This document shows positions 426 through 31,277 of a stretch of DNA of 45,753 bases, piece by piece. The position numbers and the translations under genes were made by a program. Source of the DNA: Ectocarpus siliculosus. Taxonomy: Eukaryota; Sar; Phaeophyceae; Ectocarpales; Ectocarpaceae. Position 1 is the first letter of the stretch. The number at the start of each line of letters is the position of its first letter. The stretch covers positions 2,628,856-2,674,608 of the forward strand of contig FN649729.1 of NCBI GenBank assembly GCA_000310025.1, in the 5' to 3' direction. The notes below the pieces were generated by a model. It was not told where the DNA came from, made no database searches, and worked only from the letters and a program-made list of their open reading frames with translations.

Positions 426-2625
426 CCGGTGAAAGAGGCAAAAGTTGGCGTTCTTTCCTCCCAGCCCCTTCACTCGCAGCCAGCCCGACAGCACTTGGGC
501 GATAACCGCGGCGATCATGTAGTAGCCCCAGTGTGCGTGCTCGTTCTGGTGCTCTCCACCCGACGCAAAAATAGCTCTGGGGGTTACGGGAGACCCGTGC
601 GACGGCAAGGGGTCGATGCCACAGAGGAAACAGACAGGGGCGCGGAAGCCGCTTGAGCCGTGTCTTCTTCGCTTTTCGTTACAATATTTAAGCAGGACGC
701 AGCACATTGGAGTTGGGTAGACGTATTGGCTCCTCTGGAAAGAGACTGGAATCGAGCACGGACTCTTAAGATTGTTCTTGGAGTTTGATTGGACGGACGA
801 ACTAACCAAATCAGTGATGGTCGCCACCACATGCACGAGACGTGCACCCTTGGAGAGGCTGCCGTGTTGGCACCGAAGGGATCGTGCTGTGTGTTCGTCG
901 GACCCGCGGAAGCTAACACAACTAGATAATCGGGGTATTAAACAGGGCACCAACAAAGGGCAAACATATATAAAAAACGCTACAGCAGTAGCAGCACTCT
1001 CAACACCATGACTTGCTTGGAGCGGGGACCGAGCAACATGACGCGTACTATGAGCCTTTGGGGGTAACCTTCAATTCTCCCCTCGGGACTGCAAAGGAAA
1101 CACGGTGGGGAGGGGGTTCAGTATTGCCGGTACTTGCTCGGCGAATCGACTGGCGCCATTCAGAGGGAGCGGCGACATTCAACTGGTGCCCCGGAGGCCC
1201 CCACAGGGGCGCGTGGTCATGTTTTGCATGCTTTAGCTGTTTGGCCACGTGTCATCGAGAGAACGGAGCACAGGGGGGGAGGGGAGAATAAAAAAAAAAC
1301 AAAGCAAGGCACGTGGCACAAATTCGTAATTGGTCGTTGGTCGTACTCACGTGATGCCGAGGGGCAAAACTGCCTCCGAGGCTACGATCATGATCTCCTC
1401 GTGCATCTCCCACCACTGGTAGCGCCAGATGAAGTCGATCTCCTCGCCCTTGCGGTACCTGTACAGACGAGAGGGGCGCAAGGGACGGGAGGCAAGCGCC
1501 AGAGGTGAACGTATAGTTATACTATGAAAAAACAGGGATGAGTAAACATTAAGGCTATGGGAACATTACCAAAAAGTCTGAGTGAATTCAAACGCCAAGT
1601 GAAAACGACTGAGTGAAAAGCGGTCGAGTGAATACGAAGGCTGAGTGAATTCAGAGGTCGAGTGAAGGAAAAGGCGATGTGAACGAAAAGGTTGAGGGAC
1701 TACGAGGGCAAGAGAATCAAAAAGACAACAGGTAGACGCAAAACATGTTCCGCGTCCACTCGGTGAAATATTCAAACAAGAGGGTCGTCGACGCGGGATA
1801 TTTGAATGCAAGACTCTGCCGCAGCCGCCCCCTTGACCAACTACATCCGTCCGGGTCTTGGCCGCTGGCTGCGGAAGAGGCCGTCAAAATACGCCGCGCT
1901 GCACCGAGGGTACTGCACAGACAACGGACTAGGGTTGCGTGTGTTTGAACGAGCCATAAAAAAGTGACACCCGTGCTAAAAACACCGGGGAATCAATCCG
2001 GCCATGGACGCGGAGATCACCGTCCGTTCGTGAATCCTCTCCGCATCAATGGTACTGTTTTATTGCGGGACGAAGCGAAACTCCCTCAATATTTCTCGAG
2101 GATGACAACGACAACAGCCACGGCAGCGTCGAGGGCGGCCAAGACGACAACAACAAAAACAACAACAACAACAACAACAACACGCTATTACGACCCAAAT
2201 AAACCGGTGCCCGAGAAACGACTTACCTGACGTAGTAGATGCCCCACGGTGCCAGGACCATCCACGCGATGAGCATGAGCGCCCCGTGTATGGACACGAA
2301 GTTGTTCTCGTCGCACTCGTTCTCGACGTCTCCCGTGGCAAAGTTGACGGTGCTAGCGCCTCGATTGGCGTTCGGGTGCTGGCCCACCCCGGCCCCCTCT
2401 CGGAAGGAGTAGATGACTTCTGTGTCTTCCTCGTTGTCGAGGTCCTGCCACACAGACAGGAGGTAGAGGCCACACGGTCGGTCAGCCCCTTCACGCTGAT
2501 TACTGTACGCGGTAGGTAGACCACGCGTACGCACATGCAACAAGGAGATGACGACGACGAAAGGAACAAAAAGAACAACGAGGACTGCAAGAGCGACACG
2601 CACAAACCAACGGCGAGAGACATCA

Positions 2626-2707
<82 letters not shown>

Positions 2708-5026
2708 CGAGGACGAGGAAGACGACAAGAACAGCAACAAACGGCAACGACAACACAAACCCGAGCACCAACACGAGTACCTCCCCCTCCTTCCACAACC
2801 AAAACCAGCTCTTCTTTTTCCGCGTTTTGCCGTCGACACGGTTGTTGCGTTATGGGTCTCTTGATTTGTTTCGGCGGGCGACACACACACAAAGATCATG
2901 GCCTTCAAAAGCATTTTGTGTCGCCAAAGGCACTGCGACGGACGTATTTTCGTTGGTTAGCGTGGTCGATGCCCGAAACAAAGACAAACAAAAACACCAA
3001 AAAGGGCCGAGACGCAACACCTACTCGCGTCGTGCGTGCTCTGCGTGCACGAGCACACGCGCGCAGAAGTCACGATCTCCACTCGTCGTCGAGCGAACAA
3101 AAAAAAAAAAAACTTGCCTGGGAGAGGTCGTAGTCCTGATCGTCCAGGGTGGCGAACGACCTCAAGAACTGCACCGTCGTCCAGTCGCCCTCCACCTCCA
3201 CGCTCAAGACCTCGAGGTAAGGGTCGTCCTCGTCGTCCGGGTCCGGGAGGGACCGCCCACCCGTCGCCTGCCGGTCGATGCACTCCGCCTCGGTCGACGA
3301 GAGCACCTCGCAGATCACGTAATCCTTACGGTTTTTTCGGTATGATGGGGCACGGGGGACGGCACAATGTGTTAAAGGGGACGGGGGGTGCCGATCGATG
3401 CACTCCTCCTCATCCGTCGCGATCACGAGACCCACCTCCCGGGTCACGAAATGAATTCATCTCGTCGATAACAACGAGGGAGGGGCTGACAACCCAACTG
3501 GCCCGAGGAGCGAAGAGCGCCGCGCAGCCGTGGGGGCGTTGGGGGCACGCAAGCCGACGATCTACTGCATGAGTGCTTGATTCGGAGACCACCACAGCAA
3601 CTGTTGCGCCCCCCACAGCTTTGCTCCTGTACGGACGCCTCCTTGCTTTCAACTGACTCGGCGGCGCCACGCTCGTCAGATGTGGAAGTGAAATTCAGGT
3701 CCGCTCCTACCGTGAGGGCTTGAGAAAGCGGAGGTCCTGTTGCTTTCATATACACAAGCGTTGAATCGACTATGCCGCGGCGCATCCGTCAGATCTGGCA
3801 GTGAAAACAGGGTCCTCGTCCTTATCTCAACAGCTTGAGATAGCGGAGGCCTCGATGCATTCATACGTAGATCTGTTAAATCGATTCGGCGGCTCAAAGC
3901 TTGTCGAATCTGGAAGTGAAATTCGGGTCCACGTATATCACAAGAGCTTGAGATATCGGAGGCGTCGTGATGTCCTGCATAAATCCGTTCAACTGATTAT
4001 GTTGGCGCCACGCTTGTCAGATCTGGGAGTGAAATTGGGGCTTGGTCCGCGTTCATCTGGAGAGTTTACAAAAGCGGAGGTCTGCATCAATGCGTTCAAT
4101 TGATTCTACGGCGCCACGCTCGTCAGATCTGGAAGTGAAAATCGGGCCCGCGTGTATCTAAAGCTTGAGAAAGCGGGGGGCTAGTTGCGTTTCATAAGAA
4201 GATCCGTTGAATTGATACAATTCTGCTAGCGCCACGCTCGTCAGACCTGATAAATGAAATTCTGGTCGGAGGTTTTGCCTGGACGGTTGCAACGTGCGAA
4301 CAAACGACAGCAACAACGGCCCGGTAAATGCTAGGACTTGGCAACCAGCGCAGGCGCCAAGCGTACCAGGCTTGAGGCGGCAAACAAAGAGGACAGGGAT
4401 ATCTCGAGTACGGCTTTGTTTTTTTTGGGCCATCATATTGGGTGGAGACATACCTGGGCATCGCTCATGGTGAGTCCTCCCCAGCCGATCCCCAGCATCC
4501 CGGTGTCGCCGATGCCCTTCGCGCTGAGCGACATCGTCATGGTGTTGTCTTCAACCATCTGTTGTTATGGTCATCGTCGCCGTTATCGTTGCTGGTATCA
4601 CCACTATCGACTTCGTGAGATTCGACAAACTCATCATCCAGGCTGTCGATTCACCCACCCCATTCAAAATAACGAGAAATATCGAGTATGCTATCTGTGA
4701 CAAGAAACGTTTATCCACCGAATGCACTCCCTACCACATGAAAATTCACTCGCCCAAGTGGTGACGTGATTTCATGACCATCATGTACCACCAATCAACA
4801 CGCAGGATAGGAGGTATTGGGGTGGGTGTGGGGCGTCGACGAGGTAAGGCGCTCTCGTTTTGATTCCCGCTTACATTAGTTCACGTCATATATAGGTGTA
4901 CACGTGAGTAGGTCCGCGCCGCCGACCCCAGATGGCACAAGAGGCAACACCCACCAGCCACGCGCCCTTGCGTCAACATTTTTTTACCGACCGCAGCACT
5001 CCCGCTTGCTCGTGCCTGCCCAACGT

Positions 5027-5090
<64 letters not shown>

Positions 5091-8000
5091 CGCGCCCCCC
5101 TCTCTCGTCCAACCGCATCTTTCACTTCCATGCCTGCTTCAAAGAAGTACACATCCTCCAAGCGTTGTGCAAAGCGCAAGGCACACACTCACTCACACAA
5201 GGAGGCCCCCTCCTCCTCCCGAGGATACATGCAACAGAGGTATCGCTCTGAGCGCTCGAGCTGAGCGAGCTGGGCTTTCAAATGACCGATAAGTTGAAAT
5301 ATTCAAATAAGCATGAGTGCATACATACAAGTGTTCCGCACCGGAGTGGGCTCATAAGAGTAGAGAGTCACCAAGTGGGTGACGCAAGATGAACCATAAA
5401 AGGAGGCAGCAGCACCAACCCCCGGCTGAGTGCCAGCCTCGGTGCGACGTTTCCGGAGCTCAACAGCTCGCACAGCGGACCTGTTTCTGACTCCGACAGC
5501 CCAGCGAACTAAAACAGAAAAATCTCCAATTTTGCATACACAGCCACACAAGCATAATAGGTCTGGCTTGAATTTCATTTCACCTCCCAAGCGACCGAGT
5601 AGCTGTCCGAAAGGTCGGCCTCCGACACCCCGATCGACGAGCAGTCCGCGCCGCACACCTCCACGGCGGCTGCCACGAAGGCCGACAGCGGGATGTCGGC
5701 GGCACCGGTCGTCCGGTTGATCAGGTCCGAGATGGTGGTCAGGGAGGCGTCCTCGATGTCCCTAGAGTGGAGATGGTGGAACCGGTCGCCCTGGAAGGCT
5801 CTGCCAGATTGGTCGATTGATTGGCCAACCAGCGGGGGGGGGGGGGGGGGGTCGTTGCTGGTTGTTGTTGTCTTCACATGAGCAACCGTTCCGGTCTCCG
5901 CTCACTACCTTATATTGTCCGTACTTGGTCAGACTGGCTCCCGTGGTGTGTGGCTCGCGCGGGGCTTGGTGAAAAACACGCCCAGAAGAATACACGGCGG
6001 TGTCAGCAACAGCATCAATGGCAACACAGCAACATCATCCTCGACAGCAACAACCATCAAGGCTCAACAACGATGACGGCGACGGCGAAAAAGGAACCAG
6101 AAGCTCGAACCTCGACCTCGTGCAAAATATAGGGAGAAAAACGAAAAACATTTCACAATGCCTTCATACAAGACTCTATCGGAGCTTCCCTTCACTCCCC
6201 AACACCCTTCAAACAACGTCCCCTTTTACATGTCTGCCGGGCGGGTCGGCTCCTCTGCCCCGTGTGCCACGCCACCAAAACGCACCTTTTCATGGCCAAT
6301 CGGGTAGCGCCGTCGACGCTTACCAACATCATCCCCCCCACGTGCGCGCACACAAACGCACGCGTCTTTTCATCGGCCAGCCGGTTAGCGTGGCCGATGC
6401 GAAATACCAGTATACATACCCACATACACACACACAAACACACACTCCCCCTCACGGGGTCCCAGACGGCCTTTAGAAGCATTTCCTGTTTTCAGCCGGT
6501 CTGAGACTGACGTCTTGTTCAGTGGTCAGCCGGTTAGGTAGCGCACTTCAACCACACGCACACCCAGCTGGCTAGCACGGCCGATAAATACACCCACCCA
6601 CACACACACACACACACATGATGCTCCCTCACGGGGGCCCAGATCGTGGACTTTAGAAGCACATTGCGTTTTCAACCGCGCCGGGACTGACGTCTTTTCA
6701 CTGGTCAGCCGGTTAGCGCGGTCGATGCTACTTCAAGATACAAACACAAACACACAGCCGGGGATAGCGCGGCCGACAAAAGATACACAAAACACAAACG
6801 AAAGATACACACACGTGCACACACCTGTACATCTGCTCAAGCCAGGCGGCGTGCAGGAGCTCCCCGAAGACGCCCCCGGAGCTCGCCATCGTCGGCTCGG
6901 CCAGGGCCCCCGTCACGGCGTCGAGGGTCGACACGTTGCCCCCGTACGCGGTCGAGAGGATGTCCGCCACCTCCTCGTCGGCGTCGGAGCCGGAAGATGA
7001 CGTCGTGCTCGTCGTCGTCGTCGATGATGACGTCGACGACGACGACGTAGTGACGTCTGTGAAAGTGGTCGCCTCCGAGAGACCGAACGCCTGTGTGTGT
7101 GTGTGTGTGTGTTTTTAGTGTGTTGAATTTTGTTTTTCATCCCCGCGGTGGGATTTTGGTCGGAGAGGAAGATAGTGGGGGCGGACTAGCACAACAACCG
7201 CAGCCCAATACTCTCTCAATCCCCGTCCACTATCGCTCTCAAGGTGCTAAAAGTAAACGAAAAACGTTGCTGTTTTTTTTTTCCATGTCACACAGGGTAG
7301 CGGATCAACTTCAACAACAACAACAAGGATAACAACAACAACAACAACAAAAATCATTCTCTTGTCTCACCGCCCGAGCATCGTTGTAGGTCGGCAGCCC
7401 GTGGTCCCTCCCCCGCTGCACCGAGTCCACCGGGAGCTTGAACAGCGGAGACCCGTTCGAGACCGCCGCGGTGTAGTGAGTGTCGGCCGCATACACCGGG
7501 GACAACACCGCCCCTCGCAACACGTCCACAACCTGGAGAACAGAGAGCGGGAGAGAGAGAGAGAGAGGGAAGAGAGCGAGGGAGAGAGAGAGAGAGAGAG
7601 TGAGACAGATAGAGAGATAGAGAGAAGATGTTGGGAAAAACTGAGGTGCCAGGTACTTCGGCGGCGTTCGGTGATGCCCTTCCCCCCCGCTCGCTCACGC
7701 GGTCTCCAGATCATGGTCGCCTTTAGAAGCGATTTCCCTTTTGTTTCTACATATGTAGCCGCACTGACGAGAGACTGACGGATGTTCATTGGTCAGTGGG
7801 GTAGCGCGGTCGACGTCAATGAAAGAGCGAACCCGCATTCCCCTGCACATTCTACTTTAACGTCATTTATCCCGGACACTGCTGTAGATGGAAATGGAAT
7901 CGTTATGATAAATGAAAAAACAAATTGCTCCCCTTCGGGAGTTAGGTGGCTTGCCTCCCGGGGGCGACGCATGAGGACATGGCCTATGGCATCGCGGTTG

Positions 8001-11000
8001 CATCGTTGAATCTCAACGTCATGGCGTTCGTGGTGAGTGCAGGTTTGGCGAACAGCCTGCAGAATTTTCCTGGAAATTGCAATCAACATGTGAGGGGTAT
8101 TTTTGTTCCTCGCCGTGACTTTTCGGGTGTCCGTAAATGTGTGCATTTTTTTCAATGCTAGTGGCGTCTTTGTTGCACGCCCTACTGCTGCAATCCGCTG
8201 CGTTTGATTGCTCGCTCTTACGTATCCGTGTTGCCCATGGTCTGGGATTTCTGTGAGTTGCGAGGAACCAAAATGTCCTGTTAAATCAAGCACACGTTTC
8301 GTGTATTTCTTGCGGTGGCTTTCTTCGCGCGGAACACGTCCCCGGGGAATGGAGCCAATTTTTTCAATTTTGGGCGACTAGCACAAGTGCCACGGGTGGC
8401 TGGCGGTCCTCCGGCGTGCGCGGTAATGTACGATCTCCCTGCTTGCCCCTGAGAAGGAAGCGTGAGAAAAGATTCTCCTCAGCAAGCGGAATATGTCGCG
8501 AAGCACCAACCAGGCGAAATGTTACGTATGTATGTATGCATACGAAAAATATATGGTTATTTATATACACACGCACACACCGGACACATTTACACTGTTG
8601 AATAAGGGAAAAAATACGCAATTCGTACTCCCAACAAAGAAAAAGACGCGCACACACAAACACCGCACACACACACACCTTCACGTTGTTGAAGAAGGAC
8701 ACGAGGCCGTCGGCCCCGACGGCCGCCGCGAGCTCGATGTTGTCGTACCGCGTCGACTCGTAGCCCTCCCCGACCACCCGCACGGTGGACGGCAGGGCCG
8801 ACTCGAAGGCCGCCACCCCCGCCGTCAAGGTGAAGGTATCGGCGCCCGGGTTAGTGTTCTCGTCGTAGTCCGTGGTCAGCCACAGGCCCCTCCTGCTCTG
8901 CCGCCCGGGCACCGGATGCTCGCGTCCGTCTTCATCTGAACGGTTGCGATTGAGGTCGTTGAAGGACATTCTTCGATTTCTTAGAAAAAACACATGCAGG
9001 CCATCACAGAAAAGACCAAATGCCCTTTGTTCGAGAAAAAATCCACTACTGTCTAAGAAGGAGATGTACTGAGCTCTTGACTGTTAGTGAGCGAAAGGAC
9101 ATTTGATATTTGTTTGGTTGGTTTCGTTTTTGGCCGCCCTGCGGAACGGAGTGTTGGCATGCAAGCAAGTGGGTCTGAAATGGTGTTTGAACGTGTCTAA
9201 GTTGCGTCTACAACCCCCACTCGTCTCCCGTCGTTCGTGGAGGCGTCGGTGGTACCGACAGTCTTCCCCGTCTAACAAACACTCGCGGTTGGTGCAACTA
9301 ACAAAGTGGGGGAACGCGACCTGAAACCATACCCATTCCGACATTGATTTTCACTTGAAGAGGAGAGAGCAACAAGAACGACAGCGGCAACCCGATTTTC
9401 AAACACGTATGCACCCCTCCCTCCCGCCGCTCGTCCTGCACTCCACCTGGTGGTTCCCCTCTCATTTCCTGTAGCCCCCTCCTCCTAATTCTTCTCCGTT
9501 CTTCTCCCCTGCCACCGGCGCTACCATCACCGCTGTCTCCAGGTGGTGTTGTCGCTTCCGCAGGTGGTGTTGTCGCTTCCACCGGCGCTGTTGTCGCTTC
9601 CACTGGCGCTGTCGTCGCTTCCGCAGGTGGTGTTGTTGCTTCCGTTGGCGCTGTTGTTGCTTCCGTTGGCGCTGTTGTTGCTTCCGTTGGCGCTGTTGTT
9701 GCTTCCGTTGGCGCTGTTGTAGCTTCCGTTGGCGCTGTTGTTGCTTCCGTTGTCGTTGTTGTTGACGAAGACGACGACGACAACGACGACAACGACGACG
9801 ACGACGACATGCTCTCGCCGAGGTCCTGGATGTTACCCCCCAGGAGGCGGATCAGAAAGTCGTTCTCCGTGACGTGCTGGAAAACGGCTATGGTCCATCC
9901 CCGGCATGCCTGGTAGATGTCCTGCGCGTTTGCAAAAAAAGGCGGGATTTCCCGTCAAACCGGAATTCCGGGTGCCAGCTCATACCCGCCAGTGGGGGGA
10001 CGAAGACGACACCGGAACCGCAAATGGACGACATAATTAACGGGACACCCGATACTTCCGACCACCACTACCTCAGAGTCGTCTCAGGTAGCACGTACAC
10101 TGGCACAGCAGTTCGCGCGACACCTCTCCATCGATTGATGTGGTCTCCAAAATATTCCGCATCACACGGGTGGATGCGTCCTTCACGGAAAGAGGCAGAA
10201 AAAAACCCGTACCACCGTACAACCGACGGTGGCACACTCACGGTTCATTCGAAACATTCAACCCCTCAAACTACAGCCGAAAAAACTAAAAAGATGGTAC
10301 GCTTGGGTGAACCCTCCCGCCCCCGCCCCCGCCCCCCCCCCTCCCCCCCGGCACTCGAAGGATATTGCGTTAACTGACCTCGTCGCCCTCGAAGCCCTCG
10401 CTGGGCGCGATGTCCATGCAGCAGCGATTGTGCTCGAGGAGAAGCATGACGTGCAGGGCAAACGTGACCGGGAATTGGGCCGATCGCTGGTCCGCGATCT
10501 GGCGGAGGGCGTCGCCGTCGTTCGTCGGTTTTCGAGCACGTAGTAAGCGAAACAACAGCATCAACAGACACACAGACAGACACCAGAGGTAAGCTGCGCT
10601 AAACCACTAACCAATCATGAACAACAACAAAAAATCAGACACGTGAGGGAAAAGGCTTCCTTCGACGGCAATGTCACAAACCACGTAGAAAAAACAACAA
10701 ACATTGCGGCATGTGCGAAACAACGGAAAAAAGAAATTCAACATACTTGCTGCTGTCTTCCCCGCTCTCGAGTACACAAACTGGGTTCAATACGCAGCAG
10801 CCAGACGGAAAACACACATCGACTACAGGGTAACACAGGCTACTAGCTGGGGGCGCGGGAGCGGGGGGGACACACACACAACACACGGAACATGTAACCT
10901 CTCAGCAACTATTCCGCGGGAAACGAACGACTCGACTGACCAGCCAAGTCCCGTCATCGTTCACGTAGGGCAAGCCGTTCTCCGTGAGGGCCATGAAACC

Positions 11001-12558
11001 GTCGCCGTCCGCGGACGACCGCAGGGCAGCGGCCTCGTCCTCGCTCCGCCCGTACACGAAGTCGAGGTCCACGAACGCGGTGGCGTAGTTGACGGGGCTC
11101 CTCGTCTCCTCGCCCAGGGCTCCGTCGTCGTCCGACAGCGCCGCGTCCGACCTGTAGAAAGGGATGGGGTCCGACTCCGCCCCCAGGGGACACCACACGT
11201 CGACCCCCCCGGCCCCGGTCCCTTCAGAAATTACGTGCGCGAGTGATTGAGCGAAAGAACATGAACGGGTTAGAAAACGGGCGAGAGGATCAAGCGCTGT
11301 ATGGGTGCAAACAGAGGAACGTGGTATTTTGTTGTCGCGGGGGAAGACGCCCGCCCCCTGCGCCGCAAGCGTCAACTCCCCCCGAGCGTTCGACGTCATC
11401 TATCTCGACTTCGTAGGGATGCGAGGTCCACGGCCGAAAGCCTGCCGCGGGATACGCACCCCCCCCCCTGGTCCTGCCCTTCACAGCATGACTCCTTCCT
11501 ACCGCTCTCACCGTCGTTGCACTCGATGTCCAAGGGTTCGGAAGAGTTGTCGCTGGTGAGAGACAGGTCGAAAGCCAGCAGCTGCCCCCAACCGATGAAG
11601 AGAGCGCTCATGGTGGACAGCGCCGGCGGCGACTCCAGAAACACGTCGGTCATCACCTCCCTGGACAACAAAGTGCAACACAACAAAAAATCACGTGAAC
11701 AACAACAAAAAAAATCCAACACGCCACGCCAATGGAAAATTATATACTGCTGTGGGTGTTCGTCCCGTTTATTGTGATGCAGAACGTTCGGTGTGCGTGC
11801 TTTGCGTTCCAACCGGAGTCTCACACAGGAGGAAGGGCACACAAATTTTCACCATAATCCACTCTTTAACACAGAGTCTCCCTCTGCTCTCTGAATAAAA
11901 AAAAAAAAGGAGAACGGAAACTCAGAGGAGTGTTGTTGCTCGCGGAGGAACTGAGCACTTGCCTCGCAGTCGGTCTTGTCAGGTCCCCCGGTGGAGTGAA
12001 GTCCGCGTCGGCGTAGTAGGCCCCGGCCACCGAACGGAGCTGCCGCCGCAACGACACACACACGCGAAGAGTCACTACAAATTGGAGCGAAAAAGTGTGT
12101 ACGTTTGTATGCCTTTCTTACTACTAGCATCGACGGTGATAACCGGCTGACAAATGAAAACACGTCAGCGCCGGAGGAAAAAAACAACGTCCCTGGTGTG
12201 CGTGCGTGTGCGGAGGTATGTTTTCAAACAACCACAACAACAAAAACAAAACACAGCATACAACCAAACCCACCTGCGTTGCCCCGACCGCTCCCCAGGA
12301 CGGAAACGCCTCGTTGTTGCCGACCCCATCGAAGCTCCTGGGGGTGAACTCTTCCAGGTCCAAGTCGTCCGCCAGTACCGTCTGCCCCACTAGCAACGCA
12401 GAAGCGGCGACAGCGGCGGCGCCGCAGCAGCCGCAAAAGGAACGGAGAAGCGGGCGGCGGCGGCGGCGGCGGCGGCCGCGGAGAGGGGGGCGTCGCCGCC
12501 GCCGTGGTCCGCCGTCAGCGGCGCCGGAGGCGCCGGGTTCGTGTCTGCGAGCCGCCAT
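426..12558 (-). CDS. Haem peroxidase - DOMON - cytochrome b561 fusion protein (15 exons, 3' end outside window)
   Basis: Exons in coding order: 12558-12274, 12039-11963, 11660-11512, 11221-10941, 10498-10379, 9921-9531, 8935-8679, 7532-7371, 7090-6825, 5800-5584, 4558-4454, 3324-3118, 2444-2227, 1458-1351, 576-426. Phases fit at every junction and give 998 residues with no stop. Residues 1-62 hold an Arg-rich start and a hydrophobic signal segment ending VLA. Peroxidase hallmarks follow: RSFDGVGNN (70s), WGQLLAFD (145-152), RSPVN (211-215), FVDLDFVYG (220-228), LEHNRCC (285-291, proximal His287), QRGRDHGLP (559-567). DOMON lies at about 728-860. The b561 core has His892, His931, His963 and His997. 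ATG at 12558 is chosen for its good context (ACCGCCATGG); an in-frame ATG at 12624 is possible. Exon 10 spans the peroxidase/DOMON boundary, so this is one gene. Expected site is a secretory or plasma membrane with the peroxidase outside. The b561 C-terminus is missing. Confidence 0.88.
1206..1270 (+). repeat. Dispersed repeat family B, copy 1
   Basis: Shares GTCATGTTTTGCATGC, then TTAGCTGTT and CGAGAG-ACGGA, with four other copies at 39893-39996, 43002-43045, 44018-44075 and 45172-45276. This copy lies in an intron of the peroxidase fusion gene, about 80 bp past a 5' splice site. Confidence 0.65.
1570..1725. repeat. Degenerate 17-bp minisatellite
   Basis: About eight or nine diverged units of roughly 15-18 bp share the core GAGTGAA followed by an A/G-rich tail (e.g. 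CTGAGTGAATTCA, TCGAGTGAAGG). It sits in an intron. Confidence 0.6.
2625..2708. repeat. (GAC/GTC)n microsatellite
   Basis: Almost uninterrupted GAC triplets lie in an intron. They create long one-residue reading frames on both strands that are not genes. Confidence 0.9.
2892..2973 (+). repeat. Dispersed repeat family A, copy
   Basis: AGATCATGGCCTTCAAAAGC near the start and GGTTAGCGTGGTCGATGC at the end match the family described at 6623-6728. It is intronic. Confidence 0.55.
3112..3117 (-). other. GC-type 5' splice site (intron 12 of the peroxidase fusion gene)
   Basis: CTCTCCCAG is followed by GCAAGT and a run of T. Cutting before GCAAGT keeps phase 0 and joins DYDLSQ to DLDNEEDTEV. This is a second GC-AG intron in the same gene. 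Confidence 0.78.
3663..4250. repeat. ~113-bp minisatellite, about five units
   Basis: Units begin at 3663, 3779, 3891, 4004, 4110 and 4229 (spacings 116, 112, 113, 106, 119). Each starts GGCGCCACGCTCGTCAGATC or a variant, continues with GGAAGTGAAATTCGGG, then AGCTTGAGA-AGCGGAGG and CGTTCAATTGAT. It lies in the intron between exons 11 and 12 of the fusion gene. Confidence 0.85.
5029..5088. repeat. (CT)n microsatellite
   Basis: About 30 uninterrupted CT dinucleotides lie in the intron between exons 10 and 11. Confidence 0.95.
5834..5851. repeat. Poly-G/poly-C run next to the exon 10 acceptor
   Basis: Eighteen G on the plus strand give a C tract about 35 bases before the acceptor TGGCAG at 5801 on the coding strand. 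It may serve as the pyrimidine tract. Confidence 0.7.
6294..6780 (+). repeat. Cluster of dispersed repeat family A (two long and four short copies)
   Basis: The long copies 6447-6543 and 6623-6728 share CCCTCACGGGG-CCCAGA, CTTTAGAAGCA, GACTGACGTCTT and GGTCAGCCGGTTAG. Short copies retaining only the last block occur at 6294-6320, 6374-6400, 6564-6590 and about 6756-6780. (AC)n tracts separate them. The last block reads like a tRNA D arm (GGTCAGCCGGTTAGCGC), so the family may be a tRNA-derived SINE; that is inference. Confidence 0.7.
7551..7625. repeat. (GA)n-rich microsatellite
   Basis: Imperfect GAGAGA run in the intron upstream of exon 8. Confidence 0.85.
7690..7815 (+). repeat. Dispersed repeat family A, diverged long copy
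   Basis: Contains CTCACGCGGTCTCCAGATC, CTTTAGAAGC, GAGACTGACG and GGTCAGTGGGGTAGCGCGGT in the family order. Confidence 0.6.
9516..9531 (-). other. Three tandem candidate 5' splice sites at the end of exon 6
   Basis: The exon 6 tail contains G|GTGATG, G|GTAGCG and G|GTGGCA a few bases apart, all in phase 1. Each joins to the exon 7 acceptor (TTCAG|AT at 8936/8935) to recreate GAT. I used the first (last exon base 9531). The others would add two or five residues. Confidence 0.5.
9541..9812 (-). repeat. Coding 21-bp minisatellite: Ser-run plus ten EATT-x-P units inside the peroxidase domain
   Basis: Within exon 6, after LIRLLGGNIQDLGES, the protein runs into a Ser/Thr stretch and then ten copies of a seven-residue unit (EATTAPT, with EATTPPA and EATTAPV variants). 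The DNA period is 21 bp and the frame is kept. This looks like an O-glycosylated, mucin-like spacer placed between two helical parts of the peroxidase fold. Length is likely to vary between individuals. Confidence 0.85.
11957..11962 (-). other. GC-type 5' splice site (intron 2 of the peroxidase fusion gene)
   Basis: The exon ends GCGAG and the intron begins GCAAGT, the consensus of rare GC-AG introns. Only this cut joins in phase to the next acceptor (TTGTCCAG|G at 11661/11660), giving RPTAREVMTDV as the family requires. The nearby GT (CAA|GTGCTC) would break the frame. Confidence 0.82.
12124..12171 (-). repeat. Dispersed repeat family A, short minus-strand copy
   Basis: The reverse complement reads GCTGACGTGTTTTCATTTG then TCAGCCGGTTATCACCGTCG. 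It is intronic, between exons 1 and 2 of the fusion gene. Confidence 0.5.
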
Positions 12559-15718: not shown

Positions 15719-17523
15719 TACAGTGGGGGGCCCTCTATAGTGCCGGTACGTGCGCAGGGCGTTCACCGGCACTATAGCGGGCACCGGCACAACTGGGAAT
15801 AGTGCCTCAATAGTGCCAAACGGCACTATTCGGGTGATCGATATCCCTCAGTAGTGCCGGTCTGGCACTACTGAGGCACTGCTGTTTGAGTTCATGGTGT
15901 ATCGCTTACCATTTGCGAGGCCAACAGAGTAGCATGTGGATCGAGTGTGGTGAATATACTTTGTGGGCGGCAGGGGCAGCCTTTTCTGAGACAAATGTGG
16001 GTTCCACTCTGATAGCTGAGTTTGCCGCGAAACCATTCCCGCATGCACGCGCAGAATTCACCTTCGGAGCCAAACCCCGTGTACAGCTCCTGTCCGTGCA
16101 ACTTAGTATACTTGAAAAAATATCACGTTCCTCGCTGCCTCCCTACGATGTTGCGTGATGAGACACGCCAACAAAACCAATAAACGCGCCAGCAACGAAG
16201 CGGACAAAAATAAAACAAAACAAAAAGAAAAAAACTGCGGTATAGCTGTCCCCCCCTCACTCATCAACAAACTCTCTCATGTCTGTCTGGCGCACGCCCT
16301 TAGCGGCATGCGCCGCGATCATCGCCATCTTCGCTTTCGATAGGTGGAACGCAGCGTCCCCGTTTCCACTCTCCCGCGCGGCCACCTCCAGGACGCCGAA
16401 GTGAGAAGACAGTTCACCGTAAGCCGGTGGGGCGCGGCGGCCGCCCCCCGTGTCCTCATGATCACTGTCCGCCTGCTTGTTTGTTTTGAAAAAAAAGCGG
16501 GTGCGAATATGTACACAACAGTGCTCTTTCAATTTCAAGGACAAATAATCCGGAAGGTCTATGAGTGTGGACATCGAGGACCTCAAAGGCCAAAGACATA
16601 ACAAAAAAAGGAGGTGACATGAAAAAAAAAAACACCATATGATACATACGAAAAGACGAAAAGGGAAAGGCAAAGAAACAAGGAAGGGCAAAAAAAAAAA
16701 GGTACAGCAGTAGAAATCGGCGACATGAGGGCATTTTTGAAAAATGGCGGGGAAAAACAACGTTCGAGAGGAAATTGCCAGGCATGTCGTGTACTCTACC
16801 TACCTCCGGAAAGTCTCCTCTGCGTGCGGTTTTCTGGCTTCCGTCGCCTGCAGCTGCCTTAGCCTCCACTTCCTTCCGTTCAGCGTTCACCTTGCAGACC
16901 AGCCGTTCCGAGCACTTAAAGCGATCTGCTATCTGCTCATGAGAAATCTTGGCATCCAGCAGCTTGAGGACCTCAACCTTGTCAGCGTTGCTCAGCCGCG
17001 CGCGAGAAGCCTTCTTCCCCCCCCCTTTCTCTGTCGGACGTTTAGATGGTCCCGCCCCAGCATCAACCCCAGCTGCGGTCGCTTTGCGCTTGCCAGTCTT
17101 AGCAGCGACGCAAGAACTGCAGATGCGGGATGTTTCGAAGTCACCCTCCACGCTGCCGCAAGTGCCATGGAGCCGCCCGCCACATCCTCCCTTGCAGACG
17201 TGGCCATGAGGGGCCTTCGGCGTTCTGTTCTGTTGAAGGCACAGTTCACCTTCCGCACACGGCATGGTGCGCCTCTGCGTAGAGCTGTGTTGGACTGCAG
17301 CAGCACGGTGTCTGTATTTTGGGAGTGTGGTGGTGTGTGTGCGTGCGTGTGTGAACCGGCACTATTGCGGGCTGACGTGGTGCCCAACCGGCACTATACC
17401 AGGCCCGCCCTCAATAGTGCCGTTTGGCACTATTGAGGGCGCTTTCTGTGTGGAGAGATTTTACCGGCACTATACCGGCAGTTGGCACTATTCAACCGGC
17501 ACTATAGAGGGCCCCCCACTGTA
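15719..17523. mobile_element. Complete TA-flanked DNA transposon, pogo/Tigger-like, with perfect 27-bp terminal inverted repeats
   Basis: The left end 15721-15747 starts CAGTGGGGGGCCCTC and ends TAGTGCCGGT. The right end 17495-17521 is its exact reverse complement over all 27 bases. Both ends abut TA (15719-15720 and 17522-17523), the target duplication of the Tc1/mariner-pogo superfamily. Subterminal zones hold many AGTGCC/GGCACT motifs, some as perfect hairpins (15809-15829, 15847-15878, 17411-17438). The only gene inside encodes an N-terminal helix-turn-helix protein without a DDE catalytic domain. The element therefore looks intact but non-autonomous. Confidence 0.9.
16257..17265 (-). CDS. 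Transposon-borne zinc-finger plus helix-turn-helix protein, no catalytic domain (2 exons)
   Basis: Exon 1 is 17265-16804 and exon 2 is 16472-16257. The intron runs from GTAGGT to AAGCAG and joins in phase 0, giving 225 residues. Residues 3-52 are a Cys/His cluster (C3, C9, H22, C24, C28, H33, C36, C49, C52) like a PHD or ribbon zinc finger. A basic linker follows (GPSKRP, GGGKKASR). Then comes a CENP-B/Psq-type helix-turn-helix, ARLSNADKVEVLKLLDAK plus ISHEQIADRFKCSERLV, as at the N-terminus of pogo/Tigger transposases. The C-terminus is short and ends REFVDE. There is no DDE/DDD domain. It could bind the element's own ends as a repressor or accessory factor, or be a deletion product. It lies wholly inside the inverted repeats. 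Confidence 0.7.
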
Positions 17524-22123: not shown

Positions 22124-22625
22124 GCTCCCTGGTGCTTTCGCTTCCGTGACAGCTCTGCCAACTTGCAGGACACGTCATCAGAAAGAGAACGTGCATGTCG
22201 TTGCTTCATTGTGATTTTGCTCCAGCTACAGCTCTTCCAACTGTCGGAAACGTCGCTTCAGGACGAGAATAGAAACGTCTCAGAAAAGAGAACAGCAACG
22301 TGCAATGTTGCTGCTTTTGTGGTGTTCTCGCTTCGGGTGCAGCTCGTCCCATCTGCAGGAAACGTTGTCATCAGAAAGAGAATAGAAAACGTGCGTGTCG
22401 CTGCTTTTCTGGTGCTCTTGCTTCGCGAACAGCTCTTCCAACTGAAGGGAACGCCATCAGGAAGAGGTTAGAAACGTGCATGTCGCTGCTTTCTGGTGCT
22501 TTCGCTTCGTCAACAGTTCTTCCAACTGCAGGAAACGTCGTCATCAGAAAGCGAATAGAAAACGTGCAACGTCGTGGATTCCTGGTGCTTAGCGCTAGCA
22601 ACAGCTCTTCCAGCTCTTTCAACTA
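22010..22625. repeat. 80-110-bp tandem minisatellite, seven units
   Basis: The marker CAGCTCTTCCAACTGCAGG or a variant starts at 22070, 22150, 22229, 22340, 22430, 22514 and 22600. Between markers recur GAAACGTCATCAGAAAGAGA, AATAGAAAACGTG and GTCGCTGCTTTCTGGTGCTT. Units differ by substitutions and short indels. Confidence 0.85.
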
Positions 22626-29000: not shown

Positions 29001-30642
29001 CGTCCACGGCTGGTTGAGAACATGCAGGAAGCGGACAGAAGTTTGTTTGTTTCTCGAGATCATGGTCTGACTCATTATGCCTGCTTGTTTGCACGCCAGA
29101 TCTTCCCGTCTCCGGCTCTGCTGCTACTGTGATCACCTCTCCCCGACGACGCCACCGTACCTTCCGTACGTTACGGCGCTAGCTCTGCATGCCAATTGGT
29201 CTGACGATGAACTCACCCCTGCCGTCTCGGTGATGTTACCCCCGTCTCTCTATACTGCCGAAAACAACAGTGCTGGTGCGGCAACAACGCCAACTACGGC
29301 GCCAACGGTGACGGTGTCTGTGACATGTCCTGCTCCGGCAACTCCGGCGAGGTCTGCGGCGGCTCCTACAGCATGAGCGTCTACGAGAACCCCGACTACG
29401 TGTTTTCTTCGGAGAACAACTACCGTGGCTGCTACTCCGACCCAGCCGACTGGCGCGATTGGGTGACACGCGGTTTCGTGCAGAGCGATTCCTCTAGCGC
29501 CATGACCACAGAGGTGAGAGGGAGAAGAGCGAGAGAGGCGTGAATAGCGCTGGTTTTCTAGCTTTGGCTACGTGAATATTCATCTCGGGCATTCTCTTCA
29601 AGTTGCTGGATGGCATGCATGCTGTTTGCACAGGATTTAGCCGGTGTGCTGCACGCTTTCTGCTTTCCGATGCCGATCACGTCATGTCATTGCCAGTGAA
29701 TTGTCAAGAGGCTCCTCGAAGTCGACACGAACACCATCTCGCCGTTAGTTGAACCGGTGCTCCTATACTCTCTCTCAGTTGGCGAGCCCCTAACTACTCT
29801 TCCCCCCTCGTCCCGATGATCGATCACTGCGGTGGACGGACACATTCCCGATTGACCACAGCTCTGTGCATCACAATGCAGCGACTCGGCCTTCTACGGA
29901 ACGCAGTACTCCAATGAGGTGAGGCCGTTGTGACAGTCCCATCCAGTCTCAGAACCATACCATTCGAATGAGTTCGGGTCTGTCTGTTGTGATCCTAAGG
30001 CGTTCAGACACTCATCGCCGCGAGGTATCGTGTTGGTTCGGAGTACCCCATGGTAGTTTGTATCGTGGCCATTGATCGCCCATTTAGCCGCCGTTTGATG
30101 CACCCAGTCACCGAATGGTGCTTTAAAACATGGTTGGTTGGGCACGGAGGGACGACACCGACGTTGGCAAGGACCGGCTCCACATTGTGCGAACCACTCT
30201 AATGTACCCATTGACCCGACGAACCCCCCTGTCCTCTGATTGCACCGCACCCTTATAACGCCTCGCGGTATCTACCATCCCTGCGAAAACAGTGCTGGTG
30301 CGGTGACTACAATGCCCAATACTCCTCCCACGGCGAAGGAGTCTGTGACATGCCCTGCTCGGGTGACCCCGATGAAACCTGTGGGGGGTACTACAGCATG
30401 GATGTGTACGCCAGTGACCCCGCGTACATTGGATGCGCCCAAGACTCCATGGACCGAATGTTCGACACGCAATTCATTTCTGACGACATGACCGCTGAGG
30501 TGAGCAGCAATTCTCAAACCAAACCCCTTGGGCTGGTGGTTTTTCGCAATGTTCGTTTTCGCCAACATGTTCACCTTTTTGGAAGAATTCGGTTTCGTTT
30601 GAAATGGCCACCCTGCCTTGCTGCCGTGGGTGGTGGTGTTGT

Positions 30643-30677
<35 letters not shown>

Positions 30678-31277
30678 TGCCCGATATCGACATCATGTTG
30701 TGTTGGCACAGGAAGGGTCAGCCACGGTCGCCATGTCGAATGATACAAAACCCGCTACCAACACAACCTTCTCCTCCATGTATCAATCTTGCTTTACATT
30801 ATGATCCTGGCTATGTCTGACAATCCATACCCGGACAATCAACCAGTATCGTGCACACTAAACCTAACCCTAAAAACCTAACGCTACATGACCCAACGAC
30901 CAGACCTGCGCCGGCCTATGCAGCGGACTGTCGGGCTACTATGGAACCCAGTATTCTGAAGAGGTAAGACTTCTTGAATGCATCTCCAAAGAGTGTAGTC
31001 GTGCTCTGTGGGACAGTGTCGTACAAGGAGCTTACCAAACACATCTGGGTTATTTAGTGAAACACCGAACATCATGCATGTCATCCTCAACATGATGAGA
31101 TCTGTGCCCTCCGGCTGTGCACGCCCCCGCACGTACTAATGCCGCCGCATGAAACAGTGCTGGTGCGGCGAAATCGACGGCGACCTCAATCCTGGCGTCT
31201 GCGGCACGCCCTGCACGGGCGACTCTGACGAGATTTGCGGTGGCTCGTACGCTATGTCGGTGTACCAATACATCTAA
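26006..31277 (+). CDS. Secreted protein with four WSC domains (10 exons)
   Basis: Exons: 26006-26057, 26646-26743, 27068-27124, 27749-27958, 28247-28303, 29271-29513, 29862-29918, 30293-30499, 30904-30963, 31158-31277. They join to 386 residues. MHLLSLALPTLFLGVVIG is a signal peptide, and the start has A at -3. Four WSC domains lie at about 25-109, 114-198, 209-299 and 303-386. Each has Y-x-GC at its start, C-x3-C, YYGTQYSTE, CWCG and CGG-YSM-VY. The first intron is phase 1; all others are phase 0 and cut every WSC domain at the same points. WSC domains bind glucan-type or other wall polysaccharides and are common in brown algal wall enzymes. There is no catalytic domain, membrane helix or GPI-like tail, so a soluble wall-binding protein is likely. 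The exon 2 acceptor (GGAGCAG|GT) is the least certain. Confidence 0.88.
30643..30676. repeat. (GTT)n microsatellite
   Basis: About eleven GTT triplets in an intron of the WSC gene. Confidence 0.85.
30857..30882. repeat. Short telomere-like motif inside an intron
   Basis: CTAAACCTAACCCTAAA followed by AACCTAACG resembles two or three diverged CCCTAAA units, between exons 8 and 9 of the WSC gene. Too short to mean more than chance or a repair scar. Confidence 0.35.

Follow-up and report, generated by a model that had tools for sequence, protein, structure and literature searches.

The minus strand of the window, by which is meant the whole stretch of 45,753 nucleotides analysed here (C4:2628856-2674608 of the Ectocarpus siliculosus assembly, C4 being the window's own contig), carries a gene whose product is probably a trans-plasma-membrane NAD(P)H reductase in a single polypeptide, laid out on the plan of DUOX, built around a CYBDOM-like (DOMON-b561) core and capped by a dead peroxidase. 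Fifteen exons between positions 12558 and 426 are spliced in consistent phase, as a predicted single transcript, into 1026 amino acids with no internal stops. The encoded order is a signal segment, an animal-type peroxidase domain, a DOMON domain and the first part of a b561-like core. All 14 acceptors of the model are AG, and the donors are GT except for two GCs, one following 12039-11963 and the other 3324-3118. The gene is incomplete at its 3′ end, the remaining part lying in and past the run of Ns that abuts window position 1. Exons are numbered across the gene family as E1-E16 without E11, E12-E16 being exons 11-15 of the window model. The omitted E11 is an extra candidate exon at 5508-5419, which was rejected: in tblastn searches against the same-genome loci its peptide matches the window alone, and exon 10 is joined directly to E12 in the three modelled paralogues (C18, C15a and C15b).

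These paralogues repeat the exon series of the window gene in the same order at one locus on contig C18 and two on C15 (tblastn, same genome). At a further locus, C1, the order is the same around a gap of Ns, E9, E10 and E12 not being seen there. Because the paralogues show the same module order, chance juxtaposition is excluded. The C18 model has 27 exons and 1473 amino acids with no stops, E28 being its last exon, and matches An_peroxidase (4.7e-74), Cyt-b5 (6.7e-11) and NAD_binding_1 (8.8e-6) in Pfam. The C15a and C15b models (22 and 21 exons, no internal stops in either) contain fewer introns: each of the groups 3-4, 6-8 and 9-10 is a single open exon. GC-AG introns with the donor GCAAGT recur in the family: twice in the window gene, at E2 of both C15a and C15b, at E14 of C18 and at E21 of C15b. 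A genome search with PF03098 gave 11 matches and one with the C18 peroxidase protein 30, every one of them within the five peroxidase-DOMON-b561 loci; no stand-alone animal-type peroxidase turned up in these genome searches, which can miss weak exons. On C26, a diverged further copy has peroxidase pieces that match weakly (E 0.006 to 5e-5) and are visible with exon queries only. Partial or diverged relatives lie at C18:250147-255667 (minus strand; next to the full-length C18 copy and inverted relative to it), C15:5733768-5740727, C26:6835298-6840909, C3:3195566 and C313:23031, and carry b5/reductase or b561 pieces, that on C26 also the weak peroxidase pieces. The claim of an earlier sequence-only reading, that a single gene fuses these domains, is thus borne out by 15 in-phase exons, the lack of stops and paralogues of the same order.

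The peroxidase-like domain extends over the first ten exons of the splice model. Exon 1 (12274-12558), for which hydropathy and the paralogue exons were also used, contains the start codon, an Arg-rich stretch, a hydrophobic segment (residues 40-58) and the start of the domain. Exon 2 (11963-12039, also seen in the paralogues) has the first GC-AG donor. Exon 3 (11512-11660) encodes WGQLLAFDL, where the profile alignment places Ala-Phe in the position of the distal Asp-His pair, and exon 4 (10941-11221) retains the calcium-site loop TAFVDLD, a site compared with that described in the available part of PMC7794343. The catalytic Arg is replaced in exon 5 (10379-10498; LEHNR vs REHNR). Exon 6 (9447-9921) carries a Ser/Thr/Pro repeat insert (EATTAP) found by the tandem repeat scan. 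Here a 21-base unit at 9547-9764 is present in 10.4 copies and encodes the EATTAP repeats; the insert is absent from C15a and C15b. Exon 7 (8679-8935) covers the proximal-histidine region, without a histidine in the profile alignment, and is followed by exon 8 (7371-7532; VQRGRDHGLPTYND) and exon 9 (6825-7090). Exon 10 (5584-5800, residues 691-763) carries the peroxidase end together with the first DOMON strand, and is merged with exon 9 in C15a and C15b. That this exon covers the peroxidase/DOMON junction had been read from the DNA before, and Pfam agrees, placing the DOMON start at residue 756 inside the same exon. A domain search of the joined protein, which the same reading had called for, matches both An_peroxidase (1e-69, 235.9 bits) and DOMON (4.8e-10, 40.2 bits against a cut-off of 32.7).

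Elsewhere in the window, an open frame at 30215-30814 (plus strand) encodes the end of a WSC domain (1.1e-7, above cut-off) and possibly belongs to a gene for a cell-surface protein. A 299-residue open frame at 16465-17361 (minus strand) weakly matches HTH_23 (4.7e-4, below cut-off) and is perhaps transposase-like, and a tandem repeat at 22280-22612 has a unit of about 90 bases in 3.8 copies. An Rfam scan of the window gave no matches.

Judged by sequence profile, the animal haem peroxidase fold is conserved. A profile of four copies, trimmed of low-complexity inserts (around exons 6-7 and within exon 9) in the rows of the window and C18, aligns over positions 3-500 of 501 with the lactoperoxidase-like structure 8s6c (2.7e-46), and also matches peroxinectin A (6erc, 1.6e-33), myeloperoxidase (1.3e-26) and DUOX1 (6wxr, 2.1e-20) in the PDB. 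The residues of haem binding are lost. The distal Asp-His pair reads AF in the window, TY in C18, LL in C15a and C15b and GY in C1, so that the distal His position is F, Y, L, L and Y and is a histidine in none of the five copies. Histidine is likewise missing from the proximal region of all five; here the exact column is uncertain (HMMER assigns F against 8s6c or A against 2ikc, hand alignment L), the absence being certain. The Arg of REHNR is retained in two of the five copies (C18 and C1) and lost in three, and all five preserve the loop of the calcium site, as TAFVDLD or a variant of it. The domain is therefore, on sequence criteria, a pseudo-peroxidase that should not bind haem in the usual way. 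Likewise, the peroxidase domain of human DUOX1 is reported to be homologous to PoxA, to miss the haem His, to show no haem density and to hold a cation site at D109, T170, D174 and S176 (PMC7794343, available part); we take the residues of the TAFVDLD loop to correspond to this site. In the profile search DUOX1 comes far behind 8s6c and PoxA, a ranking that hints at an origin of the domain apart from that of DUOX. The sequence-only reading had placed an outer haem in the peroxidase part, where the loss of both histidines in all five copies contradicts it. Peroxide handling or halide chemistry by this domain, which it had also proposed, is unlikely because the distal and proximal haem histidines are gone. 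Any outer haem would sit in the DOMON domain.

The DOMON domain continues through exon 11 (E12, 4454-4558), which has the candidate haem Met, and exon 12 (E13, 3118-3324), which was also found by the DOMON search and has the second GC-AG donor. The Pfam match ends at residue 868, the start of exon 13 (E14, 2227-2444), where the candidate DOMON haem His is followed by the first b561-like helix with the candidate ligand H1. The second helix, with H2, is encoded in exon 14 (E15, 1351-1458) and the third, with H3, in exon 15 (E16, 426-576), which runs on into the N run. DOMON is matched by all four trimmed members of the family; the whole C18 model scores 32.0 and its trimmed form 34.7, the cut-off being 32.7. 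The haem ligands of DOMON, assigned by pattern and spacing, are a Met (GGLTM) and a His (GQHP) that lie 93-96 residues apart and are conserved in all four aligned copies (C1, with its N gap, and the partial copies on C26, at C15c and near 250 kb on C18 were left out of the alignments). From this His to H1 there are 30-31 residues, from H1 to H2 38-39 and from H2 to H3 30, H1-H3 being invariant in the four copies; residue numbers of insect CG8399 give 93, 30, 41 and 30 (PMC10691727, available part). Two candidates exist for the fourth histidine: FHR, 36 residues after H3 as in the accessible description of CG8399, and HIxAG, 43 after H3 with a Gly at +4 and outside the window.

By family profile the core is only faintly recognizable as b561. 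The Pfam b561 family matches three of the four trimmed copies at E<=1, all below cut-off (13.7 and 17.4 bits vs 23), and DUF420 matches the same stretch in all four about as weakly (best 0.011). The PF03188 search of the genome found two places, neither of them at the peroxidase-DOMON-b561 loci, and the DOMON-b561 profile found no b561, CDH or DOMON structure in the PDB, its sole match being the unrelated 2e7c (E 0.16). Hydropathy (19-residue windows, threshold 1.25) detects the N-terminal segment in three of the four models (the exception is C15b), and core segments numbering four in C18 but three in either C15 model, with none at the HIxAG region; it also peaks inside the outer domains, and simple hydropathy gives no clean helix count. 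The DOMON domain thus appears to stand directly before a b561-like core, an assignment based on spacing and sub-cut-off matches. Of the four-histidine core proposed from the sequence alone, three candidate ligands and the FHR histidine at the window end can be recognized; the second candidate for the fourth falls in exon 17, within the N run, and the 1026-residue window model has no Pfam b561 match. By analogy with the layout of CYBDOMs, five helices, an odd number, would place a following reductase inside the cell. The DOMON search of the genome gave 14 matches, one in the window gene and 13 elsewhere. Other DOMON-like exons lie at C29:38402-252685, C48:85973-101238, C23:3799283-3801386, C8:2504438 and C4:5524471, and are not near the b561 exons of the family.

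The gene probably does not stop after b561. The N run (C4:2621824-2628855, 7,032 bases) presumably contains exons 17-23 with the last b561 part, the cytochrome b5 and the start of a reductase. Past E16, the paralogues encode the last b561-like helices (E17, E18), a cytochrome b5 with HPGG (E19-E21) and a reductase (E22 onward) that carries RxYN, GAMS, AAGTGxNP and SGP, which we take to be reductase motifs. Pfam finds Cyt-b5 and NAD_binding_1 (best 3.6e-8) in all three paralogues and FAD_binding_6 in two (best 0.17). FNR-type reductase families of NCBIfam match far below their curated cut-offs (PaaE 5.5e-8 in two of three, BenC 3e-7 in all three), and PDB matches include cytochrome b5 (1.7e-4) and NADH-cytochrome b5 reductase 2eix (0.0045). 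In the reductase alignment, the pieces after E28 were joined by hand across the exons between E28 and E31, and the end of E28 in the C15a model is 1 base short of a GT donor, the residues used here not being altered. Beyond the N run and on the strand of the window gene, C4:2615538-2621278 contains reductase exons E24-E28, E31 and E32, which share 67-87% identity with C18 and are taken to belong to the same gene. The full order in the window gene would then be signal, peroxidase-like domain, DOMON, b561, b5 and FAD/NAD(P)H reductase. NAD_binding_6 matches the spliced C18 model weakly (0.0038, below cut-off) and gives no match in the search of the genome itself, which shows that exon-by-exon searches miss things.

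Single exons tie most of these modules together, three of the four domain junctions lying inside one: exon 10, E14 with the DOMON His and H1, and exon 18-19 in C15a and C15b, which is shared by the last b561-like helix and the b5 start. In C18, C15a and C15b alike, a phase-0 intron marks the b5-reductase junction. Selection on the modules was assessed by a simple Nei-Gojobori count over exons up to E27 without C1 (N gap), the pairs C15a/C15b and C18/C15a serving for b5 and reductase. The modules compared have dN/dS ratios of 0.03-0.40 and the pseudo-peroxidase domain 0.22-0.24, dS in distant pairs being 1.06-1.92, near saturation. By these ratios, purifying selection acts on the modules compared, and the pseudo-peroxidase domain is not decaying.

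The predicted electron path runs outward, as the sequence-only reading had suggested. NAD(P)H would deliver electrons to FAD in the C-terminal FNR-type domain, from which they may pass to cytochrome b5 and then to two b561 haems, the inner before the outer. The outer b561 haem could pass them to the haem of the extracellular DOMON, ligated by Met and His, and this haem in turn would serve an acceptor outside the cell. The N-terminal peroxidase domain may cap the DOMON, with a role in structure, regulation or binding. Ascorbate, named earlier as a frequent electron source of DOMON-b561 proteins, need not be the donor, since the NAD(P)H reductase that is attached, with b5, in the paralogues would make it unnecessary. 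As to the acceptor, Fe(III) or Cu(II) is tentatively favoured by analogy with the plant CYBDOM HYP1, O2 being the less likely candidate.

With O2 as acceptor, the protein would be an NAD(P)H-dependent oxidase that releases superoxide or H2O2 at the cell surface. It would count as a second enzyme of the DUOX type, serving defence, the cross-linking of the wall or the supply of haloperoxidases, and would share the DUOX plan of an outer pseudo-peroxidase, a membrane haem core and an inner NAD(P)H domain, and the peroxidase domain of hDUOX1 is likewise without its haem His (PMC7794343, available part). This reading is nonetheless rather unlikely: the C18 model has neither a NOX core nor an EF-hand, ferric-reductase/NOX-core exons elsewhere in the genome (8 matches) could supply reactive oxygen, and HYP1, a CYBDOM of described activity, is a metal reductase (PMC10784544, available part). 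The PF01794 exons lie, among other places, at C488:56637, C13:3146401, C8:4474543, C352:7320 and C328:4822. Far less probable is the version of the sequence-only reading, in which the b561 chain supplies electrons to a peroxidase domain that has stayed a haem enzyme, its ligands being unusual. The fold is conserved under purifying selection and C18 and C1 keep the REHNR Arg, but distal His and Asp are gone and the proximal region has no His in all five copies, and three of them have lost the Arg. Haem peroxidase activity was rejected on the absence of these ligands.

Nor does the gene look like two or three neighbours (peroxidase; DOMON-b561-b5; reductase) misread as one whose exons are in phase by chance. 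The introns are long and one of them falls at the b5-reductase junction, yet the peroxidase/DOMON (exon 10, or 9-10 in C15a and C15b), DOMON His-H1 (E14) and b561/b5 (18-19 in C15a and C15b) boundaries are each spanned by a single exon, and C18, C15a and C15b share order, strand and phases; such a misreading is very improbable. Slightest of all is the likelihood that the family is decaying and its copies largely pseudogenes. Partial or diverged copies do exist (C15:5733768-5740727, C18:250147-255667 and on C26), against which stand four modelled copies with no internal stops and dN/dS well below 1 in the modules compared. The single-polypeptide NAD(P)H reductase with a CYBDOM-like core and a dead-peroxidase cap thus stays the preferred reading.

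If so, the DUOX plan may have been invented twice, a possibility put forward tentatively: a haem-less peroxidase would sit over an NAD(P)H-driven haem relay with a NOX core in animals and a CYBDOM-like core here, and the second type would be, in its lineage, a major oxidase or metal reductase of the cell surface. Dead peroxidases would on this view recur as caps in such machines and be no leftovers. To our knowledge, the reason why DUOX retains a peroxidase domain unable to bind haem is not settled. A second lineage with the same fold inactivated on an unrelated core would offer a comparative test of the purpose of this domain, and features conserved in both, such as the calcium site or the interface with the membrane core, would show its role. 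Furthermore, these genes are candidates for algal surface redox activity, that is, iron reduction or the oxidative burst. As an NAD(P)H-driven b561 protein, the product would be self-sufficient, in contrast to the ascorbate-fed HYP1 of the available description.

The order peroxidase-DOMON-b561 was found described nowhere in the open-access literature, to the extent of the texts available there, most subscription journals being outside that scope. Pattern searches with the DOMON-b561 alignment against viral contigs (30 matches) and with the peroxidase alignment against prokaryote contigs (95) gave no confirmed case. Compared with animal-type haem peroxidases (8s6c, 6erc, MPO, LPO), the fusion matches over the full length and retains the calcium-site residues, and differs in having no haem ligands and in being part of a membrane electron chain. 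A peroxidase-like domain is given as the mark of DUOX in the accessible text of PMC3591440. With DUOX, the fusion shares an N-terminal peroxidase-homology domain (An_peroxidase 1e-69; DUOX1 6wxr 2.1e-20) and a C-terminal FAD/NAD(P)H domain, NAD_binding_1 being found in three of three paralogues and the FAD half weakly (two of three, 0.17). The core is DOMON-b561-like and not a NOX ferric reductase, and DOMON and cytochrome b5 are extra; up to E28, the C18 model has no Pfam match at E<=1 to a NOX/ferric reductase core (PF01794) or to any EF-hand family. The idea of a differently built DUOX analogue therefore holds, with a DUOX-like plan, a CYBDOM-like core and neither NOX core nor EF-hand found. 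The DOMON-FRE proteins of Naegleria, Albugo and Phytophthora, also found in stramenopiles, resemble the fusion in having an extracellular DOMON on a transmembrane reductase; their core is a ferric reductase domain, and the part of PMC3591440 that describes them mentions no peroxidase domain. CYBDOMs (insect CG8399/FRRS1, Arabidopsis HYP1/CRR) come closer: DOMON is followed by b561, DOMON has the Met/His pair, and the His spacing of the fusion is near that reported for CG8399. In the available parts of PMC10691727 and PMC10784544, the CYBDOMs are described without peroxidase, cytochrome b5 or reductase domains, and HYP1 as carrying ascorbate-dependent electron transport across the membrane and reducing ferric and cupric substrates. 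By its sequence, then, the fusion is not a DUOX, although it may work on a DUOX-like plan, and is nearest to an extended CYBDOM.
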